This document shows positions 36,291 through 64,000 of a stretch of DNA of 64,000 nucleotides, piece after piece. Made by a program: the position numbers and the translations under genes. Source of the DNA: Methanolobus mangrovi (GTDB lineage: Archaea; Halobacteriota; Methanosarcinia; Methanosarcinales; Methanosarcinaceae). The notes below the pieces were generated by a model, which made no database searches, was not told the origin of the DNA, and saw only the letters and a program-made list of their open reading frames with translations. Location: contig NZ_CP133594.1 in NCBI RefSeq assembly GCF_031312535.1, positions 930,001 through 994,000 on the forward strand. The letters run 5' to 3'. Numbering within the stretch: position 1 is the first letter of the stretch; each line of letters begins with the position of its first letter.

Positions 36291-39200
36291 TTATTTCTGT
36301 TTTCTGCTCACAAGGAAAGCAAGTGAAACAAACACGACTCCTGTAAGAGCAGTGAATCCCGGAGTGCTGGAAGTTTCTTCTTCCTCTACTGGTTCATCTA
36401 CTTCTTCAGCCACTGATGTTGCTGAACTTTCCACTGTATCTGCCGGAGTATCGCTTACTTCATCACCTAAAACACTGAAAATTGAGAATCCAGGAGTCTC
36501 AGCGTAGAAATAGAAGTATTCACCATCTTCACTTTTCTGAGAAGTTGGAAGATCATTCCACTGGTCATCATTATATCTTGTCATGCGGATGGTGGAAACA
36601 TCAATGTTGTTATCTTCTATCCACTGCTTGCTCACCTTGAAGCTGATCATGACATTGTCAGCACTATCTGAAGAGATAGTTCCTTCATTTCCAACATCAA
36701 TGCTCATCATCTGGTAGGAGTTACCGGATGGAGATGGAACGCCTTCTGGAGCACTGGAAAGTACCTGAACTTTGGCAACTACAAGACCCTTATCTTTCTT
36801 TGCGTCAAAGCTGATTCTAAGAACCGGGGTACCGCTGTCTGAGAAGTCGTAGTTAACTTTTGAGCCGCCTGTTACACGCTTGACAGATGAAGCAGACTGT
36901 GACACGATCTTTGGATCCTGACCCTGACTTACTGATGCACGAGTTCCTGAACTTGAACTGCTTGAACTTGGTACGTCTGTTACGGTTATGGTCATGTTAC
37001 TGCTGAGATTGCTTCCCGCAAAATTACTTGCATTCAAATTTACGTAGTAGGTTCCTGTGGAACTGAAACTATGAGTAGGGTTCTGGGAAGTGGAATTAGT
37101 TCCATCACCAAAATCCCAGAACCACGATGTTGGAGTATTGCTGGAATTATCTGTGAATACAACAGTTAGCGGAACATATCCTGAACCAGTGCTTGCAGTG
37201 AAATCTGCAACCGGAGTTATGACATCGTTTATGGTGATGGTCATTACCTGAGAATCGACCGAACCATAGCCGTCACTTACATTGAATTCAACATAGTAAA
37301 TTCCAGAATCATTGATGTTTGCACTCCATAAACCTTCACCGGTACTTGTATTAAAGTCGTCAAACAGAGAACTTCTGTTACAGCCAAATGTTGCTGTATC
37401 GCCATCGACATCTGTGAAGTTAATATCAAAGTTGATAGTTTCTCCTTCACTGCTTGTGATGTTTGTTACATCGAGAATACTTATCTCGTTGTTTGGAACC
37501 TGAACTGTGGAATTAGCTCCGGCTGACAGTACTGAGTACGTGATATTGTATGCATAAACTGTTATGTTAGACCATGCATGAGCAGAGAGAGCGGTATGGT
37601 TGAAACTGTTTGTTGTTCCATTCAGCCAGCTTGCATTATAACTCACGTTATAGGAATCAATTTCAATTCCTGTGCCTGCATTCCAGCTATGGTTCACCCA
37701 GAAATTACCAGTTGTATTTGTGAAGCTTTCAGGAGCTGAAATTGGTTCAACTGTGATGAACATTATCTGAGAATCAATTGAACCATAACCGTCACTTACA
37801 TTGAATTCAACATTGTATGTTCCAGCTTCACCTAAACTGATGTTCCATGAACCAATACCAGTACTTGTGTTAAAGTCATCAAACAGGGAACTCTGGTTGC
37901 AGCCAAATGTTGCTGTGTCACCATCGGCATCTGTGAAGTTAATGTCAAAGTTGATACTTGCTCCTTCACCTGTGGTGATGTCTGTTACATTGAGAATGCT
38001 TATCACGTTGTTCGGTATCTGAACTCTGGAAATGGCGCCTGCTGAAAGTGTGGAATCCGTAGCATTGTATGCATAAACTGTTATGTTTGACCAGGCATGA
38101 GCTGAGAGTCCGGTATGATTGAAATAGGTAACAGTGCTGTTCTGCCAATTTCCGTCATAACTCACATTATAGGAATCGGTCAGATCTCCTGCACCTGCAC
38201 TCCAGCTATGGTTCACCCAGAAATTGCCAGTTATATTTGTGAAACTTTCAGGTGTTCCTGCAAGTGAAATCGGATCTTCCTGATACTGGAAATATGGAAG
38301 AGTATAACCGCTTATTATTTTCCACACGTAACCAGAATTATCTGCTGTTGTGATTACATTCTGTGTACCGCTTGCATTCCAGTTAAGACCTGTATCTGAA
38401 ACAAAGGCAAAACTGAGGAAGTTTACATAGGAAGTAGAAGTTCCCTCACCTGTAACCGGAGTACCGGAATAATACCCATCGGTAACACTGCCGCCACTAA
38501 GATAGCCGACAAGACCACCATTACTAGTACCAGTAGCAGTACCTGTAGCAAAACTCTTGCTCACTGTGGCGCTTCCAGCATTCTGTCCGACAAGACCGCC
38601 GACATACTGAGAACCAGTAGTTGCATTACCAGTAGCATAACAGTTGCTGATAGCACCCCAATTCTTCCCAAGAACACCACCGACAGAATCGCCAGAACCT
38701 GTGACATCGCCAGTGGCATAACTGTTGCCAATAGTACCAGTATTACCATTTTCACCGACAAGACCGCCGACTTCACCTGAGCCTGTAACAATACTATTGG
38801 CATAACAGTTGCTGATAGTATTAAGATTATAACCGACAAGACCGCCGGCATAATTAGAAGCACCAGTGACATTACCAGTAGCAAAACTGTTGCTAACAGA
38901 ACCAGTGTTGGCATTTTCTCCGGCAAGGCCACCGACATAAGAAGCACCAGTGACATTACCAGTAGCATAACAGTTGCTAAGAGTACCGCCATTATTATTT
39001 GTACCGACAAGACCGCCAGCATAATTCAGAGAAACGGTAGCATTTCCAGTGGCAGAACTGTTGGTTACAGTACCGTAATTATCCCCTATAAGAACACCAG
39101 CATAGCCACCTGTAGTAACAACACCATCTGAGCTTGCTTCTACTCTCAGATCATAGATGTTAGCACCGATTGTTACGCCAAAGAATCCGGCATAGTTAGT

Positions 39201-40499
39201 GGTCTCATAAACAGTCAGATTCAGTATTGAATGTCCATTTCCGTTAAAGTCACCTGTGAAATAAGGTGCTGTTTTACCAATTGGAGTGTGATTACCCACA
39301 AGCGTAATGTCTTGTGTTAGTGTAAAGTTCATTCCCCAGTCAGCAGAAGTTGCTGAAAGTTCGTCAATATCGCTGTCGCTTGAAAGTAAATACGGGTCAT
39401 CGACTGTACCGCTACCGCCGGAGTAAGTAACGTTTTGATACTGCAAGTATGGAAGAGTATAACCATCTATAATCCTCCATATGAAACTTGTATTCTCTTC
39501 TGTTGTGATAATGTCACCACTTCCATTCCAGTTAAGACCTGAAGCTCCTGATACAAAGGCAAAATCCATAAAGTTGGCATAGGAAGTAGAAGTACCAGCA
39601 CCTGAAGCAGGTGTTCCTGAATAATAACTGTTAGTAACAGTGGCAACATTTAACCCGATCAAAGCACCGTAATCTGATGTGCCATCTACAGTACCTGTGG
39701 CAAAACTGTTGCTCACTGTGCCAGCCTCATTATACCCGATAAGACCGCCAACCTGCTGAACACCGGTAACATTGCCTGTGGCATAACAGTTGCTAACAGC
39801 CACCACCCAAATTCTCCCAATAAGACCACCGGTAAACTGATCACCACCACTAATAACATTACCTGTGGCATAACAATTGCTTACTACAGAATGCTCACTT
39901 GCGGCGCCTATAAGACCGCCGACATGATAGCTAGAACCAGTGACAGTAACATTGGCATAACTGTTGCTTACAGTACCCTCAGCATAGCCAACAAGACCAC
40001 CGACATGCTGACCAGAGCCAGTGACAATTCCAGTGGAAGAACAATTGCTAATAGTGCCGCCAATATTACAGCCAACAAGACCACCGACATATTCAGTTGT
40101 TGAAACAACACCATCTGAACTTGTTTCTACTCCAAGATCATGGATATTAGCACCAAAATTTGTGTAACCAAAGAATCCAGCAAGGCCACCGGTATTATAA
40201 ACGGTCAGATTACTTATTGTAGATCCATTTCCGTCAAAATCACCTGTGAACTGAGTGCTGCCATCACCAATAGGAGTATGATTACCCACAAGTGTGATGT
40301 CATTTGTTAGTTGGAAGTATTTGCTCCAGTCAGCAGAAGTTGATGACAATTCATCGATATCACTGTCACTTGAAAGCAGATACGGGGTTCCGCTTGAACC
40401 ATCACCGCCGGAGTAAGTGCCTGCTGAAACTGTACCAATGCATGCTATTAAAATGCATATGAATAATGCTAATGAAAAGTGCCCTCTCTGTGAAATCAT
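36291..40499 (-). CDS. Large surface protein: GLUG repeats, fn3/Ig-like repeats, PKD, PGF-pre-PGF and PGF-CTERM
   Basis: About 1,400 residues. A signal peptide (HFSLALFICILIACIGTVSA) is followed by two long blocks of GLUG-type repeats (about 30-360 and 370-730; GGLVG and SNCYATGNVTG recur), each opening with a YLLSSDSDIDELS motif. Then come two near-copies of a 160-residue fn3-plus-Ig-like unit (about 745-1065), a PKD domain (SWFWDFGDGTNSTS), a PGF-pre-PGF domain, an acidic linker and a TPGFTALTG helix with RKQK tail, a PGF-CTERM sorting signal for archaeosortase and lipid attachment. N-glycosylation sequons are abundant. I choose the ATG at 40499, because the ATG at 40541 lies within the TATA box. 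Confidence 0.88.
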   Translation of the reverse strand: MISQRGHFSLALFICILIACIGTVSAGTYSGGDGSSGTPYLLSSDSDIDELSSTSADWSKYFQLTNDITLVGNHTPIGDGSTQFTGDFDGNGSTISNLTVYNTGGLAGFFGYTNFGANIHDLGVETSSDGVVSTTEYVGGLVGCNIGGTISNCSSTGIVTGSGQHVGGLVGYAEGTVSNSYANVTVTGSSYHVGGLIGAASEHSVVSNCYATGNVISGGDQFTGGLIGRIWVVAVSNCYATGNVTGVQQVGGLIGYNEAGTVSNSFATGTVDGTSDYGALIGLNVATVTNSYYSGTPASGAGTSTSYANFMDFAFVSGASGLNWNGSGDIITTEENTSFIWRIIDGYTLPYLQYQNVTYSGGSGTVDDPYLLSSDSDIDELSATSADWGMNFTLTQDITLVGNHTPIGKTAPYFTGDFNGNGHSILNLTVYETTNYAGFFGVTIGANIYDLRVEASSDGVVTTGGYAGVLIGDNYGTVTNSSATGNATVSLNYAGGLVGTNNNGGTLSNCYATGNVTGASYVGGLAGENANTGSVSNSFATGNVTGASNYAGGLVGYNLNTISNCYANSIVTGSGEVGGLVGENGNTGTIGNSYATGDVTGSGDSVGGVLGKNWGAISNCYATGNATTGSQYVGGLVGQNAGSATVSKSFATGTATGTSNGGLVGYLSGGSVTDGYYSGTPVTGEGTSTSYVNFLSFAFVSDTGLNWNASGTQNVITTADNSGYVWKIISGYTLPYFQYQEDPISLAGTPESFTNITGNFWVNHSWSAGAGDLTDSYNVSYDGNWQNSTVTYFNHTGLSAHAWSNITVYAYNATDSTLSAGAISRVQIPNNVISILNVTDITTGEGASINFDINFTDADGDTATFGCNQSSLFDDFNTSTGIGSWNISLGEAGTYNVEFNVSDGYGSIDSQIMFITVEPISAPESFTNTTGNFWVNHSWNAGTGIEIDSYNVSYNASWLNGTTNSFNHTALSAHAWSNITVYAYNITYSVLSAGANSTVQVPNNEISILDVTNITSSEGETINFDINFTDVDGDTATFGCNRSSLFDDFNTSTGEGLWSANINDSGIYYVEFNVSDGYGSVDSQVMTITINDVITPVADFTASTGSGYVPLTVVFTDNSSNTPTSWFWDFGDGTNSTSQNPTHSFSSTGTYYVNLNASNFAGSNLSSNMTITVTDVPSSSSSSSGTRASVSQGQDPKIVSQSASSVKRVTGGSKVNYDFSDSGTPVLRISFDAKKDKGLVVAKVQVLSSAPEGVPSPSGNSYQMMSIDVGNEGTISSDSADNVMISFKVSKQWIEDNNIDVSTIRMTRYNDDQWNDLPTSQKSEDGEYFYFYAETPGFSIFSVLGDEVSDTPADTVESSATSVAEEVDEPVEEEETSSTPGFTALTGVVFVSLAFLVSRKQK

Positions 40500-40540
40500 C
40501 CTATCAACATCCTTTATTATAAAATCAATCTGTTCAATCA

Positions 40541-40550
40541 TATAAATATA
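40541..40550 (-). promoter_or_regulatory. TATA box of the large surface-protein gene
   Basis: TATATTTATA on the minus strand, about 42 bases before the chosen start. It predicts a transcript start downstream of the alternative ATG at 40541, ruling that start out. Confidence 0.5.
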
Positions 40551-49910: not shown

Positions 49911-50054
49911 GGTACATTACCAAGCTACTTGATTTGCCTATCTTTTCATGTCAATATCTAAACACCACTACTGTAAAGTATGGGCGATTAAAATAACAAA
50001 ATATAAATATATATTAGCATATACTATTTTTGAATGATTGTTGGGTGTGTGCGG

Positions 50055-51323
50055 ATGAACAGAATGAAATATTCCCCTGATTCTTACAGAAAAATAATGT
50101 TTCTTTTTTTTGTGTTAATACTTATCTATGCTTGCATTCTAACCACGTCAGCAGAATCTGTTGTTAGCATATCACCCTCCAGCCAGAGCATAGGTGCAAA
50201 CCAGGAATTTGATGTATACATAAATATAGACCCGGAAACTCCCATTGCCGGTGCACAACTTGACATACTGTATGACCCGGACATGCTTTCAGTAAGCAGC
50301 GTTAATGAAGGGGATTTCTTCAAGCAGGATGGGACCATGTCGATCTTCATTGGGGGAACAGTGGATGATTCTCAGGGAAGAGTCAATGGGCTCTTTGCAG
50401 TAACCCTTGGCAAAGCCGAAATAAGTACAGAAGGGACCTTTGCCCACATTACATTCATAGCTTCCGATACAAAAGGAGATTGTGTCATCGATATTTCCAA
50501 TGTAATATTAAGCAATTCAGATGGTTTGTCCGTTCCCGTAACTACTCATACCGCACAGGTCACTATCAATGAAAATACGCCCTCTTCTCCAATAGATGAA
50601 ACAACTGCCAGCTCTGGTGGTGGCGGTGGCGGAGGAGGAGATACCGGCGAAGATGCCAATAACATTGCCCTTAAAGAAGTTAAAAAAATCTATATTATCG
50701 CAGACACCGATATCATTTATTCCTTTGATGAGAACTCAAACCCTATCAGTTCAATCAATTACAGGTCGCTGAAAAATGCCGGTTTCATAACAAGCACCAT
50801 TGAGGTACTTAAAGATGTATCTTCCACCGTTTCAGAAAAACCGGAAGGACTTATCTACAGGAACATGAATATCTGGATCGGAAAAGCAGGCTATGCCACT
50901 GGAACCAATATGGATGATATGAGAATATCTTTTGTTGTTCTTAAAAACTGGATCACAGTCAATGATGTAGATCCAGAGAACATACACCTGAAAAGATACC
51001 ATGCCGGAAAGTGGGAAACTCTTGACACCGAAATAAAAGGAGAAAATGAGGATTTTATCATTTTTGAAGCAAAGACTCCTGGATTCTCACCGTTTGCTAT
51101 CACTGCAGAAGCGCCATCTTATATTATGGAAGATGAAGTGTTATTAAATGAAGAATCTGACAGCAAAATTACAGACCAGGAAGAAGAGAACAGCATCAGT
51201 ATAGATAACTCTGTTTCCGGTTCAACTGAAACAAGTTCCGCAAAGCTTGCACAGAACAGCTCTTTGCTTTTTTGTACTTCCATGCTCATTATTTTATTTT
51301 TAAGACGTGGCAAACTCATTTAG
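50055..51323 (+). CDS. Exported cohesin-domain and PGF-pre-PGF surface protein
   Basis: A secreted protein of about 420 residues. After a signal peptide (IMFLFFVLILIYACILTTSA) comes a cohesin-like beta sandwich (about 35-165: VSISPSSQSIGANQEFDVYI, AGAQLDILYDPDML, GTFAHITFIASD). A Gly-rich hinge of nine or so glycines leads to a PGF-pre-PGF domain (about 205-360, with GLIYRNMNIWIGKAGYAT and the KTPGFSPFAI end). The C-terminus is hydrophobic (SLLFCTSMLIILFL) with an RRGK tail but lacks the PGF motif, so it may be held as an ordinary membrane anchor. The ATG at 50034 is an alternative start. Confidence 0.8.
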   Translation: MNRMKYSPDSYRKIMFLFFVLILIYACILTTSAESVVSISPSSQSIGANQEFDVYINIDPETPIAGAQLDILYDPDMLSVSSVNEGDFFKQDGTMSIFIGGTVDDSQGRVNGLFAVTLGKAEISTEGTFAHITFIASDTKGDCVIDISNVILSNSDGLSVPVTTHTAQVTINENTPSSPIDETTASSGGGGGGGGDTGEDANNIALKEVKKIYIIADTDIIYSFDENSNPISSINYRSLKNAGFITSTIEVLKDVSSTVSEKPEGLIYRNMNIWIGKAGYATGTNMDDMRISFVVLKNWITVNDVDPENIHLKRYHAGKWETLDTEIKGENEDFIIFEAKTPGFSPFAITAEAPSYIMEDEVLLNEESDSKITDQEEENSISIDNSVSGSTETSSAKLAQNSSLLFCTSMLIILFLRRGKLI

Positions 51324-53541: not shown

Positions 53542-54579
53542 TTATATCAGGTACGTTCCAAACACATATCCTGATATCGTGGCAATCACAACGACAAGTG
53601 AAATGTATGTCAGGCCTTTCTGGACACCCATGATCCTGCTTATCACGATCATATTAGGCAGACTCAGAGCCGGACCTGCCAGCAGCATGGATAGTGCAGG
53701 ACCCTTACCCATACCAAGAAGTGTGAGTGCACTTATTATAGGAACCTCTGTCAATGTTGAGAAATACATGAGTGCTGCAGCAACAGATGCAATTATGTAT
53801 GACATAAAAGTGTTGCCTCCTACATATTTAACGACATATTCTGCAGGGAGGAGTTCAACCATGATACCGGCAAAGAACACTCCTATCAGCAGAAGGGGAG
53901 TTATCTGCTTTACGAGGAACCAGGTCTCAGTCATCCAGCTTTCAAGCTCATCCTTAGAGAACCATTTGAGAGAGACGTATATGGTAATAAGTATCAGTGG
54001 AATTTCCACAAATAGCATTGGATTCCATGTAGGCAGTATCTCAGGTGTCACAAGTATTGCCAGAAGCAGCAGGAAAAGCCAGACTGTGTGAGCGTGTTTC
54101 TCTTCACCGAATGTCTTGATGCTCTTTCTTTCGCCGTTATATTTCTCATATATGAATGCCATCATAATACCGATAAACACTGAAAGGAGAATTGCTATAA
54201 CTGCCCTTGCAACTCCAAGGTCATAGCCCAGTATCTTAGCGGTATAAACTATGGCAAGAATATTGATAGCAGGCGCCGAGAACAGGAAGGTGGTTGCCGG
54301 ACCAATTCCCGCACCTCTTTTATAGATTCCTGCAAATAGAGGTAGAACGGTACAGCTGCACACAGCGAGCAGACACCCGGAAACGGCTGCTACTGTGTAG
54401 GAAACATATTTAGGTGCATCAGCCCCGAAGTATTTCAGGACCGACTCTTTGGAAAAGAGCGATGCTATAGCTCCTGCCAGGAAAAAGGCAGGTATAAGGC
54501 ACAAGAGTACATGCAATGCAAGATACTCCTGAAGTGATGCAATACCAACATAAGCCAGGTCTACGAGATAAGAGGTCAT
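53542..54579 (-). CDS. DUF318/ArsP-type permease
   Basis: A 345-residue membrane protein with eight or more spans. The family signature, AVCSCTVLPLFAGIYKRGAG with SAPAINILAIVYT (about 95-130), and a second half with STLTEVPIISALTLLGMGKG and AGPALSLPNMIVI are present. Members include ArsP, which exports organoarsenicals, and related permeases often found with thioredoxin-like proteins; the Cys-x-Cys in the first motif is conserved. It heads the five-gene unit. Its promoter is bracketed by two identical operators, and the ATG is only two bases from the first, so the transcript is probably leaderless and tightly repressed. Confidence 0.88.
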   Translation of the reverse strand: MTSYLVDLAYVGIASLQEYLALHVLLCLIPAFFLAGAIASLFSKESVLKYFGADAPKYVSYTVAAVSGCLLAVCSCTVLPLFAGIYKRGAGIGPATTFLFSAPAINILAIVYTAKILGYDLGVARAVIAILLSVFIGIMMAFIYEKYNGERKSIKTFGEEKHAHTVWLFLLLLAILVTPEILPTWNPMLFVEIPLILITIYVSLKWFSKDELESWMTETWFLVKQITPLLLIGVFFAGIMVELLPAEYVVKYVGGNTFMSYIIASVAAALMYFSTLTEVPIISALTLLGMGKGPALSMLLAGPALSLPNMIVISRIMGVQKGLTYISLVVVIATISGYVFGTYLI

Positions 54580-55614: not shown

Positions 55615-55856
55615 AATAAAAACAGATGTGCAATATTCTTTTCCATCAAGAGGTAAACCATCTGGAGAGTTTGTTTTTCCTTGATTGCACTTTAGTGTTA
55701 CAAACACACATGGTTTTTAACACTAAATTTACTATGGACCTTTTTTATTTATAACTTATGCCAGCTGAAAAAGGCAGCTAATTCCTCCATAATATCGAAA
55801 AGTTAAAGTACGTAACATGGCAAGTGATTACGTTGCTATTTATTGGAGACACAAAA

Positions 55857-55973
55857 ATGCTAGGAATAACAGATCCACAAATATGGATCGCCTATATATT
55901 ATGTTTCGTAAGTGCCATAGGATGTATAATCTATGGCCTGATACACTGGAACGATAAAGAGGATGATAACTGA
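55857..55973 (+). CDS. 38-residue symporter-associated membrane micro-protein
   Basis: A short gene with GGAG at good spacing before its ATG. The product begins MLGITDPQIWIAY, has one hydrophobic span (about 9-28) with Cys16 and Cys23, then IHWND and an acidic end. Its TGA shares one base with the ATG of the following symporter (TGATG), so they are translationally coupled. The micro-gene at 62404 encodes a protein with 30 identities over 38 positions, also directly before a paralogous symporter. I recall such proteins being named symporter small accessory proteins, but cannot check this. Confidence 0.88.
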   Translation: MLGITDPQIWIAYILCFVSAIGCIIYGLIHWNDKEDDN

Positions 55974-57562
55974 TGGCTGTCAGTACACCCATTCTTGGAA
56001 TATCTGTACTAGCCTACATGATGGTGGTTTTCTACTTTGGATGGCTTGGTTACAAACAGACAAAGGACACTGACGACTACATGCTGGCCGGAAGGAAAGT
56101 CAATCCTTTCGTACTTGCTTTCTCCTATGGAGCCGCATTCATCAGTACCTCTGCGATAATAGGATTCGGAGGATATGCCGCTGCATTTGGTATGGGAATC
56201 CTGTGGCTTGTTGCCATGAACATAGTTGTCGGCATCTTCATCGCTTTTGTCATATTCGGTTCAAGGACAAGGCGTATGGGATTCAACCTTAAGGCTGTTA
56301 CATTTCCCGAACTTATAGGAAGAAGGTTCCAGTCAAGATTCATACAGGGATTTTCAGGTGCTCTTATTACCATATTCATGCCACTCTATGCAGGCAGTGT
56401 CCTGATAGGAGGAGCACGTTTCATGGAAACTGTCCTTGGTATTGAATACAATACCGCTGTTCTCATGCTTGCCATAATCGTTGCAGCTTATGTTATAACA
56501 GGCGGACTTATTGCAGTTATGTACACAGATGCTCTTCAGGGTGTATTGATGTTCATTGGAATGGCCATACTGCTTGTACTTACATATGCAAAACTTGGAG
56601 GTGTTGTTGAAGCACACCAGGCACTCACAAATATGGCATATCTCGTCCCAGATAATCTTGCAGCCGTCGGACATACCGGATGGACCTCGATGCCAGCCTT
56701 TAACTCACCTACATGGTGGACACTTGTATCAACCATTATACTTGGAGTGGGCATCGGTGTACTTGCACAACCGCAACTTGCCGTACGTTTTATGACTGTG
56801 GAGAGCACCCGTTCACTTAAAAGAGCTGTTCTTTCAGGTGGTCCTTTTATCTTTATGATGGCAGGAGTTGCCTATATCGTGGGTGCATTATCAAATGTAT
56901 ATTTCTTCAATACACAGGGAATGATATCCCTTGATGTTGCAGGCGGTAACATCGATAAGATAATCCCGGAATATATCAACAGTGCAATGCCTGATTATTT
57001 TGTTGTGTTCTTCCTGCTCACCCTTCTGGCAGCAGCCATGTCAACACTGAGTTCCCAGTTCCATGCTATGGGTACTGCATTCGGACATGATTTCTACCGT
57101 GAGGGTATTATGAAGGGAAAGATCGCAAAGACAATAAATGTCACAAGAGCAGGCATTGCAACGACCATCATGATCAGTGTAATACTTGCATATATTCTCC
57201 CACCAGGAATTATTGCACGTGCAACAGCGATATTCTTCGGACTCTGTGCAGCAGCTTTCCTTCCAATGTACACAGGAGCGATCTTCTGGAAACGCATGAC
57301 AAGACAGGGAGCGACTGCAAGCCTTCTTGTGGGTACTTTCGCCAGCCTGTTCTGGCTTACATTCGTTCACGCAAAGGAAGCAAGCGCATTGGGCATAAGC
57401 CAGGCACTGTTTGGTAAGGTAACATTGCTTACAGGTACATGGACTGTTGTAGACCCAATACTGGTAGCTACACCACTGGCCATTATTGTTGCCATAGTAG
57501 TGAGCCTCATGACAAAACCTGAATCAAAAGAACATATTGAACTGTGCTTTAAGAGAGAATAA
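55973..57562 (+). CDS. Sodium:solute symporter family transporter
   Basis: A 529-residue SSS-family transporter with about 13 spans. The early loop DTDDYMLAGRKVNPFVLAFS, the span SYGAAFISTSAIIGFGGYAA, a YVITGGLIAVMYTDALQG segment and the AAAMSTLSSQFHAMGTAFGHDF helix are typical. It is much closer to the symporter at 62529 than to the one at 34320. Substrate unknown; a carboxylate, amino acid or betaine is possible. It is coupled to the 38-residue micro-gene and is followed by T tracts and a long hairpin. Confidence 0.92.
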   Translation: MAVSTPILGISVLAYMMVVFYFGWLGYKQTKDTDDYMLAGRKVNPFVLAFSYGAAFISTSAIIGFGGYAAAFGMGILWLVAMNIVVGIFIAFVIFGSRTRRMGFNLKAVTFPELIGRRFQSRFIQGFSGALITIFMPLYAGSVLIGGARFMETVLGIEYNTAVLMLAIIVAAYVITGGLIAVMYTDALQGVLMFIGMAILLVLTYAKLGGVVEAHQALTNMAYLVPDNLAAVGHTGWTSMPAFNSPTWWTLVSTIILGVGIGVLAQPQLAVRFMTVESTRSLKRAVLSGGPFIFMMAGVAYIVGALSNVYFFNTQGMISLDVAGGNIDKIIPEYINSAMPDYFVVFFLLTLLAAAMSTLSSQFHAMGTAFGHDFYREGIMKGKIAKTINVTRAGIATTIMISVILAYILPPGIIARATAIFFGLCAAAFLPMYTGAIFWKRMTRQGATASLLVGTFASLFWLTFVHAKEASALGISQALFGKVTLLTGTWTVVDPILVATPLAIIVAIVVSLMTKPESKEHIELCFKRE

Positions 57563-57818: not shown

Positions 57819-58364
57819 GTGACAAAAGCAACTTTTATCATATTCTTTCTAGTTGGAATATCATTGGTGGTTTCAGGCTGCGTGAATCATATGAATGACA
57901 ACTACAATATGCCTGGTCAAACCTATGGGTGGCATGAACCAGGGTACATGTATCCAGAACAATATGATCCCTCCGTAAGTTCTAACATAATTACGGAATT
58001 TTCATCTAATGGAGAGATGATCTATTATACTGGTTTTAATGAAAGCGGACAACAAATATCTATCAGAGATGGCATGCCATGGTTATATGTTCACGGAGGC
58101 AGCTGCGTTAGTTGTCATGGAGTAGATGGTAAAGGCGGAGTTCCTATTATGATGAGCAATGTTATTCCTCCTGATATAACCTATGAAGCTTTAACCTCTG
58201 AAGATGAGCATGAAGAGCATCCCCCATATACTGACAAAACTATAAAAGTTGCAATAAGGGAAGGCAAGGACCCTTCTGGCGAAGAGCTTGATAACTCAAT
58301 GCCTAGATGGGATATGTCGAACGAAGACGTTGATGATTTGATAGAGTATTTAAAGACCCTTTGA
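57819..58364 (+). CDS. Monoheme c-type cytochrome lipoprotein
   Basis: A 181-residue exported protein. The signal peptide ends in VVSGC (Cys21), a lipobox-type site, so it is probably anchored on the outer face of the membrane. The single heme-binding site is CVSCH at 96-100, in SCVSCHGVDGKGG; the distal ligand is probably Met161 or Met166 in LDNSMPRWDMSNEDVDDLIEYL, the classic end of class I cytochromes c. The 75 residues before the heme domain are Tyr/Pro/Met/Asn-rich. Start is GTG. It probably carries electrons at the cell surface; no oxidoreductase partner is adjacent, but small envelope proteins follow on the same strand. Confidence 0.88.
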   Translation: MTKATFIIFFLVGISLVVSGCVNHMNDNYNMPGQTYGWHEPGYMYPEQYDPSVSSNIITEFSSNGEMIYYTGFNESGQQISIRDGMPWLYVHGGSCVSCHGVDGKGGVPIMMSNVIPPDITYEALTSEDEHEEHPPYTDKTIKVAIREGKDPSGEELDNSMPRWDMSNEDVDDLIEYLKTL

Positions 58365-58529
58365 TATGCTTGTGTTCTACAAAGGCAGAGGACCTTTACT
58401 TTCTTTTTTTGCCTCAAAGAATCTCTTTATCTACTCTGAATAATAAAATCTAATCAAAGCAACTTAAAGTTCATATTTTTTTGTGAATTACCTGTTTGTT
58501 CGTAACCTATATAACATATTACGTACATG

Positions 58530-58547
58530 TGTAGTATATAGACTACA
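58530..58547. promoter_or_regulatory. Operator-like inverted repeat TGTAGT-N6-ACTACA
   Basis: A perfect 6-6-6 inverted repeat located 14-30 bases after a CTATATAAC TATA-like element (58508-58516) and before the start at 58599. It would overlap the transcription start and is a candidate site for the ArsR-type regulator encoded at 59979. Confidence 0.5.
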
Positions 58548-58598
58548 TATGCAAAACAATAAGTCATGTGTAGCTATGAGATGATAATGGTGAAAAAC

Positions 58599-59093
58599 AT
58601 GAAAAGAACAACAATGCTGCTTGCTATTGGAGCACTCATTCTACTTGTCAGTGGAATGGGGGCTGTAAACGCAGAAACAAATGAAAATGCCAATGCTTGG
58701 TACGGTCCGATGTACAACTGGATGGCTGACCATATGGGAAGCTATGGCTATGGACCTGGCGCATGCTGGGGTGGCTATGGATCCAGCTATGCATATGCAG
58801 ATACAACACAGGAAATTGCTGTCCCAACCGTAGAAGATGCTTATGATATTGCAAAGACTAAGATAAGCGCAGATGTGTCAATGGACAACATTTACCAGAT
58901 GAGTAGGTGGTGGGTCGTTTATTACACAGACGCTGATGGTGCAATAAAACAGGGACGTATTGATTCATTCACAGGTGAAGTCGTTCAGGATTTCAACACT
59001 TACTCCAACACATACGCCAGAAATTACCAGTCTGGAACCTCCAGTCGTAATTACAGAGGTGGAATGGGTACAGGTATGATGTATGGCTACTAA
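58599..59093 (+). CDS. Exported Gly/Tyr/Met-rich protein with PepSY-like domain
   Basis: A 164-residue secreted protein. The signal peptide ends at AVNA (about 24). Residues 30-70 are rich in Tyr, Gly, Trp, Met and one Cys (WYGPMYNWMADHMGSYGYG, GACWGGYG). Residues 78-130 look like a PepSY-type unit: TVEDAYDIAKTKI, then RWWVVYYTDADGAIKQGRID and SFTGEVV. The C-terminus is again Gly/Met/Tyr-rich (RGGMGTGMMYGY). The start at 58599 is chosen because GGTGA lies five bases before it; ATGs at 58566 and 58587 are upstream in frame. The Met/His/Trp-rich segment could bind metal, which is inference. Confidence 0.7.
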   Translation: MKRTTMLLAIGALILLVSGMGAVNAETNENANAWYGPMYNWMADHMGSYGYGPGACWGGYGSSYAYADTTQEIAVPTVEDAYDIAKTKISADVSMDNIYQMSRWWVVYYTDADGAIKQGRIDSFTGEVVQDFNTYSNTYARNYQSGTSSRNYRGGMGTGMMYGY

Positions 59094-59133
59094 GCCATGC
59101 ACATAGATCTATTTAGAAAAACAAGGTAATATC

Positions 59134-59343
59134 ATGATGTACGGAGGCTATGGCAGCTATGGACTTTTCGGAGGATTCGGTATGATATTTTTTATACTTA
59201 TCATCATAGCAATAATCTGGGCTGCTTCTTCAGGCTTTGGAAGAAATGGCAGAGATGACTATGATTCAAGGATCTCAAGAATTGAAAGATCTCAGGAAGA
59301 GAACAAAGAGAAGCTGGATAAGATTCTTCAGAAACTTGAGTAA
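59134..59343 (+). CDS. Small one-span membrane protein with coiled-coil tail
   Basis: A 69-residue protein. The N-terminus is Gly/Tyr/Met-rich (MMYGGYGSYGLFGGFG), the middle is a strong membrane span (MIFFILIIIAIIWAA, about 17-33), and the C-terminal 30 residues form a charged helix with heptad-like pattern (RISRIERSQEENKEKLDKIL). It resembles the small proteins that carry SHOCT-like or coiled-coil tails in metal-stress loci. It lies 40 bases after the PepSY-like gene and shares its Gly/Tyr/Met style with the C-terminus of that product. Confidence 0.72.
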   Translation: MMYGGYGSYGLFGGFGMIFFILIIIAIIWAASSGFGRNGRDDYDSRISRIERSQEENKEKLDKILQKLE

Positions 59344-59393
59344 AAACTCACATAAGGTCTGATAAGTTAAATCAATTGCAAGGATAGAACAAA

Positions 59394-59624
59394 ATGACAG
59401 AGAAAAACATAATTCCTGTTCTGAACAATATGCCAGACAAGAACGAAAAAGAAAATGTGGAATGTAATTCTTGTGGGAAAGGTAGCTGTTGTGGTGGATT
59501 TGGGATTAAGGCAGGATCTGAAAAAGAGGTAGTATACAGGAACATATTCCTGTACCTGACTATGGGAATCATTATATTCGTAACTGCCTACCTCATAATG
59601 AAACTCTTGACATGGCTAACATAG
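59394..59624 (+). CDS. Small one-span membrane protein with a CxxC...CC motif
   Basis: A 76-residue protein: a polar N-terminal 45 residues with CNSCGKGSCCGG (Cys24, 27, 32, 33), then one membrane span (about 50-72, FLYLTMGIIIFVTAYLIMKLL). The cysteine set is suited to bind a metal ion or an Fe-S cluster. No family is recognised. It has an AGGA element before the ATG and lies between two small membrane-protein genes on the same strand. Confidence 0.65.
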   Translation: MTEKNIIPVLNNMPDKNEKENVECNSCGKGSCCGGFGIKAGSEKEVVYRNIFLYLTMGIIIFVTAYLIMKLLTWLT

Positions 59625-59712
59625 TCCATTAAATGTTTAGCATCGGCCTATAATTAATCCCATTCTCCATTTACTTATTTTAAAATAAACCAATTTAAAA
59701 GGTGATATTTAT

Positions 59713-59931
59713 ATGATGGATAGCTTCATGTATGGAACATACGGCTCCGTATGGGGTTTGCTTTTGAACATATTACTTATCCTCCTAGTAGTCTGGATAG
59801 CAGTAACTCTACTGAACAGATCAGATAATGTTGGTTCAGTAAATAGTGAACGTCTTACAAAGGTTGAAAAGAATGCAGAAGACATAAAAAAGATGGTAGC
59901 TGATATCAAAGAGAAACTAGATGAGATTTAA
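59713..59931 (+). CDS. Small one-span membrane protein with coiled-coil tail, paralogue of the 59134 product
   Basis: A 72-residue protein with MMDSFMYGTYGSVWG, a membrane span (LLLNILLILLVVWIAVTLL, about 16-34), and a helical tail RLTKVEKNAEDIKKMVADIKEKL-like (split: RLTKVEKNAEDIKK, MVADIKEKLDEI). The design, short aromatic/Gly start, one span and a 30-residue charged helix, equals that of the protein encoded at 59134, so they may form hetero-oligomers through their tails. GGTGAT precedes the ATG. Confidence 0.7.
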   Translation: MMDSFMYGTYGSVWGLLLNILLILLVVWIAVTLLNRSDNVGSVNSERLTKVEKNAEDIKKMVADIKEKLDEI

Positions 59932-59978
59932 ATCTCTAAGACTCTAATAGGTTCAGCTCTAGAAAAGAAGGATTATAG

Positions 59979-60269
59979 ATGACAATGACACTTCAACAGA
60001 TCACAAAGATAGGGGAAGCAATTTCGCATCCTGTACGATTGAAACTGTTGTATTTGCTCTCTGAGAATGAAAGATATGTGTACGAGTTATCCAAAGATCT
60101 GAATCTGTCCAGACAGGTGATACAGCTACACCTAAAACGTCTTGAGAACGCAGGCTTTGTTGAGAGTGACCTGAGACTTGAAGATGATGATAATCGGGCA
60201 AAGAAGTTCTTTAAGCTAAAAGAATTTGATTTTAAGCTGGATATTGAAGATCTGGTAAAATTATTCTAG
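59979..60269 (+). CDS. ArsR-type winged-helix regulator without cysteines
   Basis: A 96-residue winged-helix protein: ITKIGEAISHPVRLKLLYLL, then ERYVYELSKDLNLSRQVIQLHLKRLENAGF (split: YELSKDLNLSRQVIQ, LHLKRLENAGFVES) with the recognition helix, and a charged wing (LRLEDDDNRAKKFFKL). It is ArsR/MarR-like in shape but has no cysteine at all, so it cannot use the usual ArsR/SmtB thiolate sites. It is the last gene of the small envelope-protein unit and probably regulates it; a 6-6-6 inverted repeat near 58530 is a candidate target. Confidence 0.82.
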   Translation: MTMTLQQITKIGEAISHPVRLKLLYLLSENERYVYELSKDLNLSRQVIQLHLKRLENAGFVESDLRLEDDDNRAKKFFKLKEFDFKLDIEDLVKLF

Positions 60270-60283
60270 TAATTTTACAATCA

Positions 60284-61918
60284 TCAGGAGCGTAGTATGG
60301 AATATACTCCTGTTAGGGCTCCAACGATAAAAGCGGTAATTCCTATCATAGAGATAATTCCCTCTCCCCTTATCATCAAATATGCAGAGAGACTTAGCAG
60401 GACCAGCAGGAACAACGTTTTAGATAGGTCTTTTATGGGTCCGTATTTTTGGATAATGTTGCTCTTGCGTTCTAATTTCTCTATCCTGTATCCTCTTATT
60501 GTCTTCACCACATCTGCAAACCCTTTAGGTATTTCCTTTATAATGGTCAGATATTCATCAGCTTCGAACTGAATTCCTTCCACTGCTTTCTTGGGAGAAT
60601 ATCTTTCTCTGAGAACTTTGCTGATAAGTTCTTCTGCATCGGACATTATATTGTAATTCGGATCTAACTGGAGACTGACTCCTTCTATAAGCAGGACTGC
60701 ACGTTCGAGTGTTGAGAATTCTGCAGGCAGGGACAGGTCATATTTCAAAGCAAGTATAGCATAGCTATCACTTTTTCGACCACCTGCTCCATAATGCTGA
60801 TCAGCTATCAGGTCATCCATGTCTCTTTTCAGTCCTCGGATATCAACATCCTCTTCATCAGTATCTGCGATCTTCAGGAGCATTTCAGTCGCCATATCCG
60901 TATTTTGTTTGTATATGGCATAAAAGAAATTCATCATATTCCGCTTCAGATCATCGTCAACAGTCCCTACAGCACCAAGATCTATGAAAGCAACAGTACC
61001 ATCTTTTACTATTATGTTACCACCATGTGGATCAGCATGGTAGAAACCGTCAAGGTACACCTGTTTCAAATAGCTGGAAGATATTATTCTTGCATATTCT
61101 GCTCTTGTCCTTTGGTCAACTCCAGTTAGATTCTTTACAGAAGTGCCTTCCACATAATCCATAACAAGAATGTTCTCACGATTATAATCCATGTATGAAT
61201 CAGGAATTATCACGTTGTTTACATCTTTGAAGTTCTCACGTAAGCGTTTCATATTTACGGCTTCATACCTATAATCAAGTTCCCGATGTAACATTTCCCT
61301 GAATTCTCGCAGGAAAGCGTCAATGTTGAAATTTGATCCCAATCCAAGGATCTTAACAAGAATAGGTTTCATATCATCTAAAATGGAAAGGTCCAGGTTG
61401 ATTGTATCAATGAGGTTTGGACGAGCTATTTTAACAGCAACATCCTTTCCGTTCAGAACTCCGCGGTATACCTGCCCGATAGATGCGCTTGCAATAGGTT
61501 TTGTGTCAAATTCATCGAAAATATCCAGCATGTCATTACAATGATAGCAAGTAGGGTTATGTTCATGCTGGCATTCTGATATTTCACAAATACATTCTGT
61601 GCTGAAAGAAGCACGCATTTCATCAAAATCAAGAGCCATAACTCTATCCTGTAATTTCTCCAGTTCAGTGACGTAGGTAGGTGGGAGCAGATCAGAACGC
61701 TTACTTAGCGTTTGTCCTAACTTTACAAAACAAGGCCCTAGCTCTTCAAAAGCAAGCCTTAGTTTAATAGCATTGCTACGATTATCCAAATCATAGGAAC
61801 AGGTACATTTTTTAAATGATATATGATCCCGATGTATGTCCTTGTAGATCAGGGAGAATAAATTGTATTTTGTGAAAACTTTAAGAATTGTGATATATCT
61901 TTCCAATTTTCTAAGCAT
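60284..61918 (-). CDS. ABC1/UbiB family kinase-like protein
   Basis: A 544-residue atypical kinase of the ABC1/ADCK/UbiB family. Family motifs are present: the N-terminal FVKLGQTLSKRSDLLPPTYV (KxGQ), the Ala-rich region IASASIGQVYRG, the ATP Lys in DVAVKIARP, and YHADPHGGNI with AFIDLGAVG. Two C-terminal membrane spans (about 495-544) anchor it. An extra Cys/His cluster (CICEISECQHEHNPTCYHC, about 105-125) sits in the N-terminal half and may bind zinc. The family supports quinone or other lipid biosynthesis; methanogens would use methanophenazine, so that link is inference. It converges with the ArsR-type gene. Confidence 0.9.
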   Translation of the reverse strand: MLRKLERYITILKVFTKYNLFSLIYKDIHRDHISFKKCTCSYDLDNRSNAIKLRLAFEELGPCFVKLGQTLSKRSDLLPPTYVTELEKLQDRVMALDFDEMRASFSTECICEISECQHEHNPTCYHCNDMLDIFDEFDTKPIASASIGQVYRGVLNGKDVAVKIARPNLIDTINLDLSILDDMKPILVKILGLGSNFNIDAFLREFREMLHRELDYRYEAVNMKRLRENFKDVNNVIIPDSYMDYNRENILVMDYVEGTSVKNLTGVDQRTRAEYARIISSSYLKQVYLDGFYHADPHGGNIIVKDGTVAFIDLGAVGTVDDDLKRNMMNFFYAIYKQNTDMATEMLLKIADTDEEDVDIRGLKRDMDDLIADQHYGAGGRKSDSYAILALKYDLSLPAEFSTLERAVLLIEGVSLQLDPNYNIMSDAEELISKVLRERYSPKKAVEGIQFEADEYLTIIKEIPKGFADVVKTIRGYRIEKLERKSNIIQKYGPIKDLSKTLFLLVLLSLSAYLMIRGEGIISMIGITAFIVGALTGVYSILRS

Positions 61919-62403: not shown

Positions 62404-62529
62404 ATGCTTGGAATAGATGACCCACAAATATGGATTGCTTATGTACTTTGTTTTGTAAGCGCCATAGGCTGCATAATCTATGGAGCCCTCAAATGGAACG
62501 ATGGTTCTGATGACGGAGAGGTGGAATGA
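62404..62529 (+). CDS. 41-residue symporter-associated membrane micro-protein
   Basis: A paralogue of the 55857 product: MLGIDDPQIWIAY start, one span with two cysteines in CFVSAIGCIIYG, KWND and an acidic tail. GGAAGGAG lies six bases before the ATG. Its TGA shares one base with the following symporter ATG (TGATG). Conservation of sequence, gene order and the one-base overlap with the 55857 module shows that micro-gene and symporter were duplicated together. Confidence 0.88.
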   Translation: MLGIDDPQIWIAYVLCFVSAIGCIIYGALKWNDGSDDGEVE

Positions 62530-64000
62530 TGGTATTGAGCACACCCGTACTTGGAGTTATCATACTGGTCTATCTGATGGTAATCTTTTACCTTGGATGG
62601 CTCGGATATAAGAAAACAAAAGAAACTGAAGATTACATGGTGGCAGGAAGGAAGATACATCCTTACATACTTGCATTATCCTACGGTGCAACTTTCATCA
62701 GTACTTCAGCCATAATCGGATTTGGTGGAGCCGCCGGCGCTCTTGGTATGGGACTGTTATGGCTTGCTTTTATGAACATCTTTGTCGGAATATTCATAGC
62801 ATTCGTTGTATTCGGTTCAAAAACACGCCGTATGGGCCTGAATCTAAATGCAGTTACATTTCCTGAGCTGATTGGAAGACGTTTCCAGTCCAGATTCATC
62901 CAGGGATTCTCAGGAGCACTTATAGGCATATTCATGCCACTTTATGCAGGTATCGTACTTATCGGAGGCGCAAGGTTCCTTGAATCCACCCTCAATATAA
63001 ACTATGATGTTGCCGTTCTTATTCTCACTGTTATCGTTGCCGCTTACGTTATCACAGGCGGACTTATTGCTGTTATGTATACAGATGCCCTGCAAGGCAC
63101 ACTGATGTTTATAGGAATGATCTTCCTGCTCGTATTCACTTACGCCAAACTGGGAGGAGTTAGTGCAGCTCACTCTGCTCTTACAGCCATGAATGACCTT
63201 GTGCCTGAAAGTCTCACTGCCGGAGGACATCTTGGATGGACATCAATGCCGGTATTCGGATCACCCATCTGGTGGACCCTGATATCAACACTGGTCCTTG
63301 GTGTTGGAATTGGTGTGGTGGCACAGCCACAGCTTGCAGTCAGGTTCATGACAGTAAAGAACGATACAGCACTGAACAGAGCAGTACTTGTCGGAGGACC
63401 ATTCATCCTAATGATGACAGGTGTCGCATTTACTGTTGGTGCACTCTCCAATGCATATTTCTATGAAACACTTGGTAAGATATCAGTAGTAGTTGCAGGT
63501 GGCAATACAGATCTTATCATGCCTGAATTCATAAACAGTGCAATGCCGGATACCTTCGTTGTCCTGTTCATGCTAACCTTGCTTGCAGCAGCCATGTCCA
63601 CGTTAAGTTCCCAGTTCCATACAATGGGAACATCCATAGGCCATGACTTCTACCGCGAGTACATCAAGAAAGGAGAACTCGGTCAAACTATCAACATAAC
63701 CAAAGTAGCAATTGCAGGCACCATTCTTGCAAGTGTTATTCTTGCATACATACTTCCAATTAGTATCATCGCACGTGCAACGGCAATTTTCTTCGGACTT
63801 TGTGCAGCAGCATTCCTGCCAATGTACGCAGGTGGCCTTTTCTGGAAACGCATGACCAAAGAAGGTGCAATTGCCAGTCTGCTGGTAGGAACATTCTCAA
63901 GTCTGTTCTGGCTCGCATTCGTACACAAATCAGAAGCTGTACCACTTGGAATAAGCAAAGCGATATTTGGTGTTGACACGATCCTGACAGGTACCTGGAC
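62529..64000 (+). CDS. Sodium:solute symporter family transporter (3' end beyond window)
   Basis: At least 490 residues of an SSS-family transporter; the frame is open at the window edge. It parallels the 55973 protein closely through its whole visible length: TEDYMVAGRKIHPYILALSY, TFISTSAIIGFGGAAGALGM, YVITGGLIAVMYTDALQG and AAAMSTLSSQFHTMGTSIGH. A small number of residues are missing at the end. It presumably has a related but not identical substrate. Coupled to the 41-residue micro-gene. Confidence 0.92.
   Translation, partial: MVLSTPVLGVIILVYLMVIFYLGWLGYKKTKETEDYMVAGRKIHPYILALSYGATFISTSAIIGFGGAAGALGMGLLWLAFMNIFVGIFIAFVVFGSKTRRMGLNLNAVTFPELIGRRFQSRFIQGFSGALIGIFMPLYAGIVLIGGARFLESTLNINYDVAVLILTVIVAAYVITGGLIAVMYTDALQGTLMFIGMIFLLVFTYAKLGGVSAAHSALTAMNDLVPESLTAGGHLGWTSMPVFGSPIWWTLISTLVLGVGIGVVAQPQLAVRFMTVKNDTALNRAVLVGGPFILMMTGVAFTVGALSNAYFYETLGKISVVVAGGNTDLIMPEFINSAMPDTFVVLFMLTLLAAAMSTLSSQFHTMGTSIGHDFYREYIKKGELGQTINITKVAIAGTILASVILAYILPISIIARATAIFFGLCAAAFLPMYAGGLFWKRMTKEGAIASLLVGTFSSLFWLAFVHKSEAVPLGISKAIFGVDTILTGTW

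Follow-up and report, generated by a model that had tools for sequence, protein, structure and literature searches.

Six small genes that follow one another on one strand of the Methanolobus mangrovi chromosome raise the question of whether they form a single envelope system and, if so, what controls it and what it answers to. They lie at 57819-60269 of the 64,000-nucleotide stretch analyzed here, which we call the window and to which unprefixed positions refer. An earlier note on this DNA had taken them for surface or membrane products plus one regulator, possibly a metal or redox envelope-stress system. The genes and their convergent neighbor are as follows.

57819-58364, + strand: cytC, GTG start; lipoprotein with lipobox VSGC and one class I cytochrome c domain (CVSCH)
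58599-59093, + strand: exp; exported Gly/Tyr-rich protein of 164 aa with a signal peptide and a PepSY-like core at about residues 71-130
59134-59343, + strand: s69; one-span membrane protein with a coiled-coil tail
59394-59624, + strand: cxxc76; CxxC...CC protein with a C-terminal span
59713-59931, + strand: s72; one-span membrane protein with a charged coiled-coil tail
59979-60269, + strand: arsR; ArsR-type winged-helix regulator of 96 aa with 0 Cys
60284-61918, - strand: UbiB/ABC1-family atypical kinase, convergent with arsR (Pfam ABC1, E 1.6e-57)

All six ORFs were found on the + strand, as had been noted, and comparison with relatives revealed purifying selection on each of them (pN/pS 0.06-0.41; 0.22-0.26 for exp and 0.16-0.41 for s69), indicating that even the tiny ORFs are genes. 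The intergenic gaps within 58599-60269 measured 40, 50, 88, and 47 bp, in keeping with the 40-90 bases given earlier. The six do not form one unit. Between cytC and exp lie a TATA-like box and an operator, described below, and cytC should therefore belong to a separate transcription unit. The island sits between two sodium:solute symporter genes (55824-57562 and 62404-64000) that are ~75% identical, with a small accessory protein of the symporter encoded ahead of each (an NF045580 match for the second; the first recognized by eye), and it looks as if it had been inserted between tandem duplicates. Elsewhere in the window, 36294-40541 and 50034-51323 encode PGF-pre-PGF domain proteins, of which one has 1416 aa.

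The regulator matched Pfam HTH_5/ArsR with 52.4 bits (gathering score 22; E 4.9e-14), and its orthologues are 59-92% identical. Its structural model had a mean pLDDT of 88.7 and a fold matching Phr, HlyU, and CzrA. Among 31 orthologues 29 positions were invariant, including S44-R45-Q46 and L50-H51. The absence of Cys reported for the window protein was borne out, and no Cys was conserved among the orthologues, suggesting that direct sensing of a soft metal is unlikely. A search for plasmid copies of this ArsR returned distant matches only.

The start of exp was placed at 58599 (MKRTT, with GGTGA ahead of the start), the mechanical ORF opening at 58566, and its signal peptide was recognized by eye. 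A PepSY-like unit had been suspected in this protein. Pfam PepSY (PF03413) matched 11 of 19 exp homologues, at best with 6.5e-5, the window protein itself remaining unmatched, and the best PDB match of the confident core in the AlphaFold model was the PepSY protein YpmB (2gu3; probability 0.94, E only 0.083). These matches favor a PepSY-like unit, the fold match being weak by its E value. The flanks of the core are disordered, Gly/Tyr-rich, and of low complexity. The Met/Trp/His-rich segment to which attention had been drawn is missing from Methanococcoides-type homologues and is not conserved; what is conserved instead is a single Cys and a YxMxRWW motif (Tyr99, Met101, RWW).

The two one-span proteins, s69 and s72, had been thought to share one design, and they are indeed paralogues, which fell into two separate clades in a tree (support 100/99). 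The s69 clade occurs only in enlarged operon copies and is retained where ArsR is lost, whereas s72 lies immediately 5' of ArsR in 47 of the 48 named loci, the exception (L249) having a truncated ArsR. The small proteins have Gly/Tyr-rich N-ends, and the distribution of charge suggests that the tail of s72 is cytosolic. With ~70-80 aa, one span, and then a charged helical tail, s69 and s72 resemble PspB and SHOCT-type proteins. Neither had a significant Pfam match, and weak PspB matches appeared in 3 of 22 members. Their identification as SHOCT proteins was rejected, since the C-terminal SHOCT motif (PF09851) is absent from the window proteins and from the family listings for the 22 members; a true SHOCT protein fills the slot beside cytC in an ANME locus (L161). 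The remaining small gene, cxxc76, duplicates a gene found throughout the family, in 81 of 112 genomes, and the second copy in the same genome (C1:1863480) adjoins an apparent RNase P protein gene and an MBL-fold gene, both identified by eye. The CxxC...GFGIKAGSEKxVVYRN protein, which has no Pfam or NCBIfam match, is a family-wide single-copy gene product (e.g., L149:8057-8629 and L150:6334-6564); in several genera it is encoded close to an apparent RNase P protein gene and an apparent MBL-fold gene. The island is built of an ArsR-fold regulator, a protein with a PepSY-like fold, and families of small membrane proteins; exp, s69, s72, and cxxc76 of the window all fell below every Pfam and NCBIfam cut-off.

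The region upstream of exp contains the following elements.

58508-58514, + strand: TATA-like box TATATAA; such boxes stand ahead of the palindrome, at similar spacing, in nearly all exp promoters
58526-58551, no strand: palindrome CATGTGTAGTATATAGACTACATATG, with a 24-mer core at 58527-58550; operator, the predicted ArsR site
58566-58573, + strand: possible extra half site ATGTGTAG, 3' of the operator, from the promoter alignment

The palindrome spans 24-26 bp and follows the pattern ATATGTAG-N8-CTACATAT, with CATATGTAGTGT-NN-AGACTACATATG as its best form, and half sites like ATGTGTAG were seen in some copies of the window type (L011, L076). The exact pattern occurred at 46 sites in 44 of the 112 Methanosarcinaceae genomes scanned, 45 of the 46 being at exp, and the reversed-pattern control yielded no site in the 112 genomes. 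The one further exact match, in G080 (C1:2895953), differs in its inner sequence and was attributed to chance. With up to three mismatches allowed, the palindrome was present in 58 of 61 distinct 250-bp regions upstream of exp, compared with 2 of 1220 mononucleotide shuffles. The M. mangrovi genome itself has just two one-mismatch sites, one per operon copy. A wider regulon was rejected, as a two-mismatch site at C1:1337174 is asymmetric and the reversed control is equally frequent at that looseness. Given the position of the TATA-like box and the usual distance from TATA box to start in archaea, the operator is predicted to overlie the transcription start of exp. Judged from these comparisons, the palindrome is a dedicated operator, found at the operon's own promoter, with a regulon of one operon per copy.

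The neighborhood is conserved, a point that an earlier proposal to search for homologues across Methanosarcinales was meant to test. In the 112 family genomes we found 86 exp homologues and 81 ArsR orthologues, which formed 79 same-strand pairs with 0.3-1.5 kb between the partners. Scattered homologues, named earlier as an outcome that would refute the envelope-system reading, were thus not what the genomes showed. Both genes were present in 73 genomes, ArsR only in 1, exp only in 5 (two of which, G051 and G111, are contig ends), and neither in 33 (Fisher 6e-22, a value that ignores the kinship of the genomes). The order exp, s72, ArsR is conserved across Methanosarcinaceae and ANME-2 relatives of the same order, and no other constant neighbor of this block was found beyond genus-level synteny. 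The M. mangrovi genome carries a plain exp-s72-arsR copy at C1:339703-340886 (L069), and the window copy is an enlarged version, exp-s69-cxxc76-s72-arsR. In Methanosarcina-type loci (L033, L081), ~500 bp separate exp from s72, a far longer distance than in Methanolobus.

This distribution bears on a structural reading of the locus, according to which exp and the small proteins would make up a Gly/Tyr-rich scaffold at the surface or in the membrane, with ArsR only keeping their level constant. Such a role would suit the low-complexity, disordered regions of exp outside its PepSY core, the Gly/Tyr-rich N-ends of the small proteins, and a regulon of one operon per copy. However, exp and ArsR are both missing from 33 of the 112 genomes, which would be odd for a basic structural part, and the conservation of the PepSY core points to binding or regulation, so we regard this explanation as quite improbable.

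Natural losses were informative about how the parts belong together. An exp gene without an ArsR orthologue occurs in G008, G071, and G073, and in both of the ArsR-less copies that were read s72 was missing as well, with the operator decayed in G008 (L086) and absent in G073 (L085). Second copies in G062 and G064 have lost ArsR and s72 and have kept s69, cxxc76, and the operator; each of these genomes has another ArsR that could act in trans. Joint losses of ArsR, operator, and s72 are what a dedicated repressor-operator pair would lead one to expect, and the pattern suggests that s72, not s69, is the companion of ArsR, although s72 and arsR are adjacent small genes and their joint loss could be one deletion. 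From the strong comparative evidence of conserved layout, genome-unique operator, and co-loss of parts, we infer that exp-s72-arsR is a dedicated autoregulated operon.

How such an operon might work is suggested by the SdpC-SdpI-SdpR system of Bacillus subtilis, in which an exported protein prompts a membrane protein to sequester an ArsR-type autorepressor (PMC1626106). The M. mangrovi operon likewise encodes an exported protein, a membrane protein, and a small ArsR-type regulator that would repress it, a layout that suggests the same logic. By contrast, SdpI is a polytopic immunity protein and SdpC a toxin, the operon here encodes one-span proteins only, and no sequence relation of s72 or exp to the Sdp proteins was found; the regulator scored 25.4 bits against the SdpR autorepressor model (NF033789), below its cut-off of 100. 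The island is therefore Sdp-like in its working at most, and membership in the Sdp system fails. Our preferred reading, which we hold at a little under an even prospect, is that 58526-60269 is an autoregulated envelope operon built on the exported PepSY-like exp, the one-span s72 with a cytosolic coiled coil, and the ArsR-type repressor. On comparative grounds, ArsR would silence the operon by binding the palindrome that covers its predicted transcription start. By analogy with the Sdp proteins, exp would take up a cell-surface signal and pass it to s72, whose tail would then hold ArsR at the membrane and so free the promoter. The enlarged copy in the window would serve metal or redox stress.

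ArsR-type regulators commonly work otherwise. Direct sensing is the rule for most members of the family, and ArsR might itself sense a cytosolic ligand or a physical state (a small molecule or temperature), with exp, s69, and s72 as the controlled effectors. The closest structure is Phr of Pyrococcus furiosus (2p4w), an archaeal ArsR-type heat-shock regulator for which temperature sensing has been proposed, and it was the best PDB match in both fold and sequence. Phr, however, is about twice as long as ArsR and has a heat-shock regulon, not one confined to an envelope operon, and ArsR scored only 29.9 bits against NF053602 (cut-off 320). Moreover, no conserved ligand site was recognized in ArsR, and self-sensing leaves unexplained why s72, and not s69 or exp, vanishes with ArsR. 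We consider it unlikely on balance, while granting it an appreciable share of our confidence.

No description of the operon was found in the open-access literature, which was the literature covered. One candidate was the bicistronic MM2440-MM2441 of Methanosarcina mazei, from the same archaeal family, reported as a protein of unknown function and an ArsR-family regulator whose overlapping ORFs are a target of sRNA162 and are thought to control methylamine genes (PMC3510493). We rejected it as the same system on the reported gene structure, its ORFs being overlapping. That source's description of the pair mentions no PepSY protein, and the two are set apart by this description only (PMC3510493). 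The conserved neighborhood, the genome-unique operator, and the co-loss of parts give the earlier view, of a coherent envelope system without a described counterpart, firmer support than the sequence alone had offered.

The cytochrome c lipoprotein had been recognized correctly, its lipobox being accompanied by a Pfam Cytochrom_C match (E 3.6e-9), and its family has a copper context. Of 43 cytC-family loci read with ~6 kb flanks, 16 contained a copper ATPase (14 of CopB type and 2 of CopA type, mostly adjacent to cytC), against a chance expectation of ~1%, which is an estimate from two such ATPases in the 2.6-Mb M. mangrovi genome and not a permutation result, loci of the same genus not being independent. 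In eight genomes (G000, G019, G020, G021, G025, G033, G038, and G052) cytC adjoins the exp operon, and cxxc76 adjoins a Cu ATPase in G020, G021, and G025. In G020 and G021, cxxc76 and the copper ATPase lie 3' of arsR on the same strand, the ATPase of G020 being a TIGR01511 member. A UbiB/ABC1 kinase gene is a repeated neighbor of window-type copies and of cytC; the product of 60284-61918 is an ABC1-family member, its 318.8 bits against TIGR01982 falling below the equivalog cut-off of 487.6. No copper ATPase was found near the window island, and the CopB homologue of this genome (C1:2098063) has no operator. Several further observations concern metals. A gene pair of a CopB-type copper ATPase and a monoheme cytochrome c recurs in Methanosarcina, Methanolobus, and other genera (L301, L302, L304, L306-L308, L314, L317, L319, L321, L324-L326), and the cytochrome is a possible redox partner of copper export. 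An ArsP_1-family permease (53545-54579; Pfam E 3.7e-80) is encoded 3 kb upstream of cytC and resembles, with scores under the respective cut-offs, the SO_0444 Cu/Zn and SaoE efflux models; it gave no meaningful BLAST match to the permease upstream of exp in L074/L083 and was rejected as its kin. In some genomes of Methanolobus and of the Methanococcoides type, FTR1-family permease genes adjoin the operon (L069:6676-7485, Pfam FTR1 E 1.6e-51; L078:6386-7204, by sequence likeness).

Were this a classical metal-sensing operon for copper/silver (or arsenic) tolerance, ArsR would bind the metal directly, and exp and the CxxC protein would bind it outside. Such a reading accords with the Cu ATPases that lie within or next to the operon in G020, G021, and G052 and with the placement of the cytC family. 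The ArsR/SmtB metalloregulators CzrA, SmtB, and CadC also share with ArsR the winged-helix fold and a palindromic operator over their own promoter. Unlike them, ArsR has no Cys or recognized metal site and scored 42.7 bits against the metalloregulator model NF033788, below the cut-off of 55. In addition, the Met/His segment of exp is unconserved, and most core exp-s72-arsR operons have no metal gene or copper ATPase within 8 kb. We therefore judge this explanation improbable, and the metal or redox label first given to the island survives only in part: copper ATPases recur beside the cytC family, cxxc76, and window-type copies, which speaks for the label, whereas the core operon and its regulator do not support it. 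Copper neighbors at window-type copies and their rarity at core operons suggest that copper is likely the theme, or context, of the window-type copy rather than a proven ligand or a property of the core. Returning to the relay reading, the window copy, with s69 and the CxxC protein and beside cytC and the UbiB gene, probably serves metal or redox (copper or silver) envelope stress.

Sensing at the cell surface is the probable function of the operon, and the route from surface signal to transcription is poorly known in archaea. In a broader proposal, which we advance tentatively and with less confidence than the relay itself, the locus would represent a form of archaeal transmembrane signaling with a PepSY-like sensor, a single-span coiled-coil relay of ~70 residues, and a membrane-held Cys-free ArsR, with a duplicated copy of the locus drawn into electron transfer linked to copper (cytochrome c, UbiB). 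As the parts are small, present in one or two copies, found in tractable genera (Methanosarcina), and provided with one unique operator per copy, DNA binding, regulon, and signal are easily testable. If the proposal is true, the small families of exp, s69, s72, and cxxc76 would gain a function, and the island further suggests that methanogens have a cytochrome c associated with copper.
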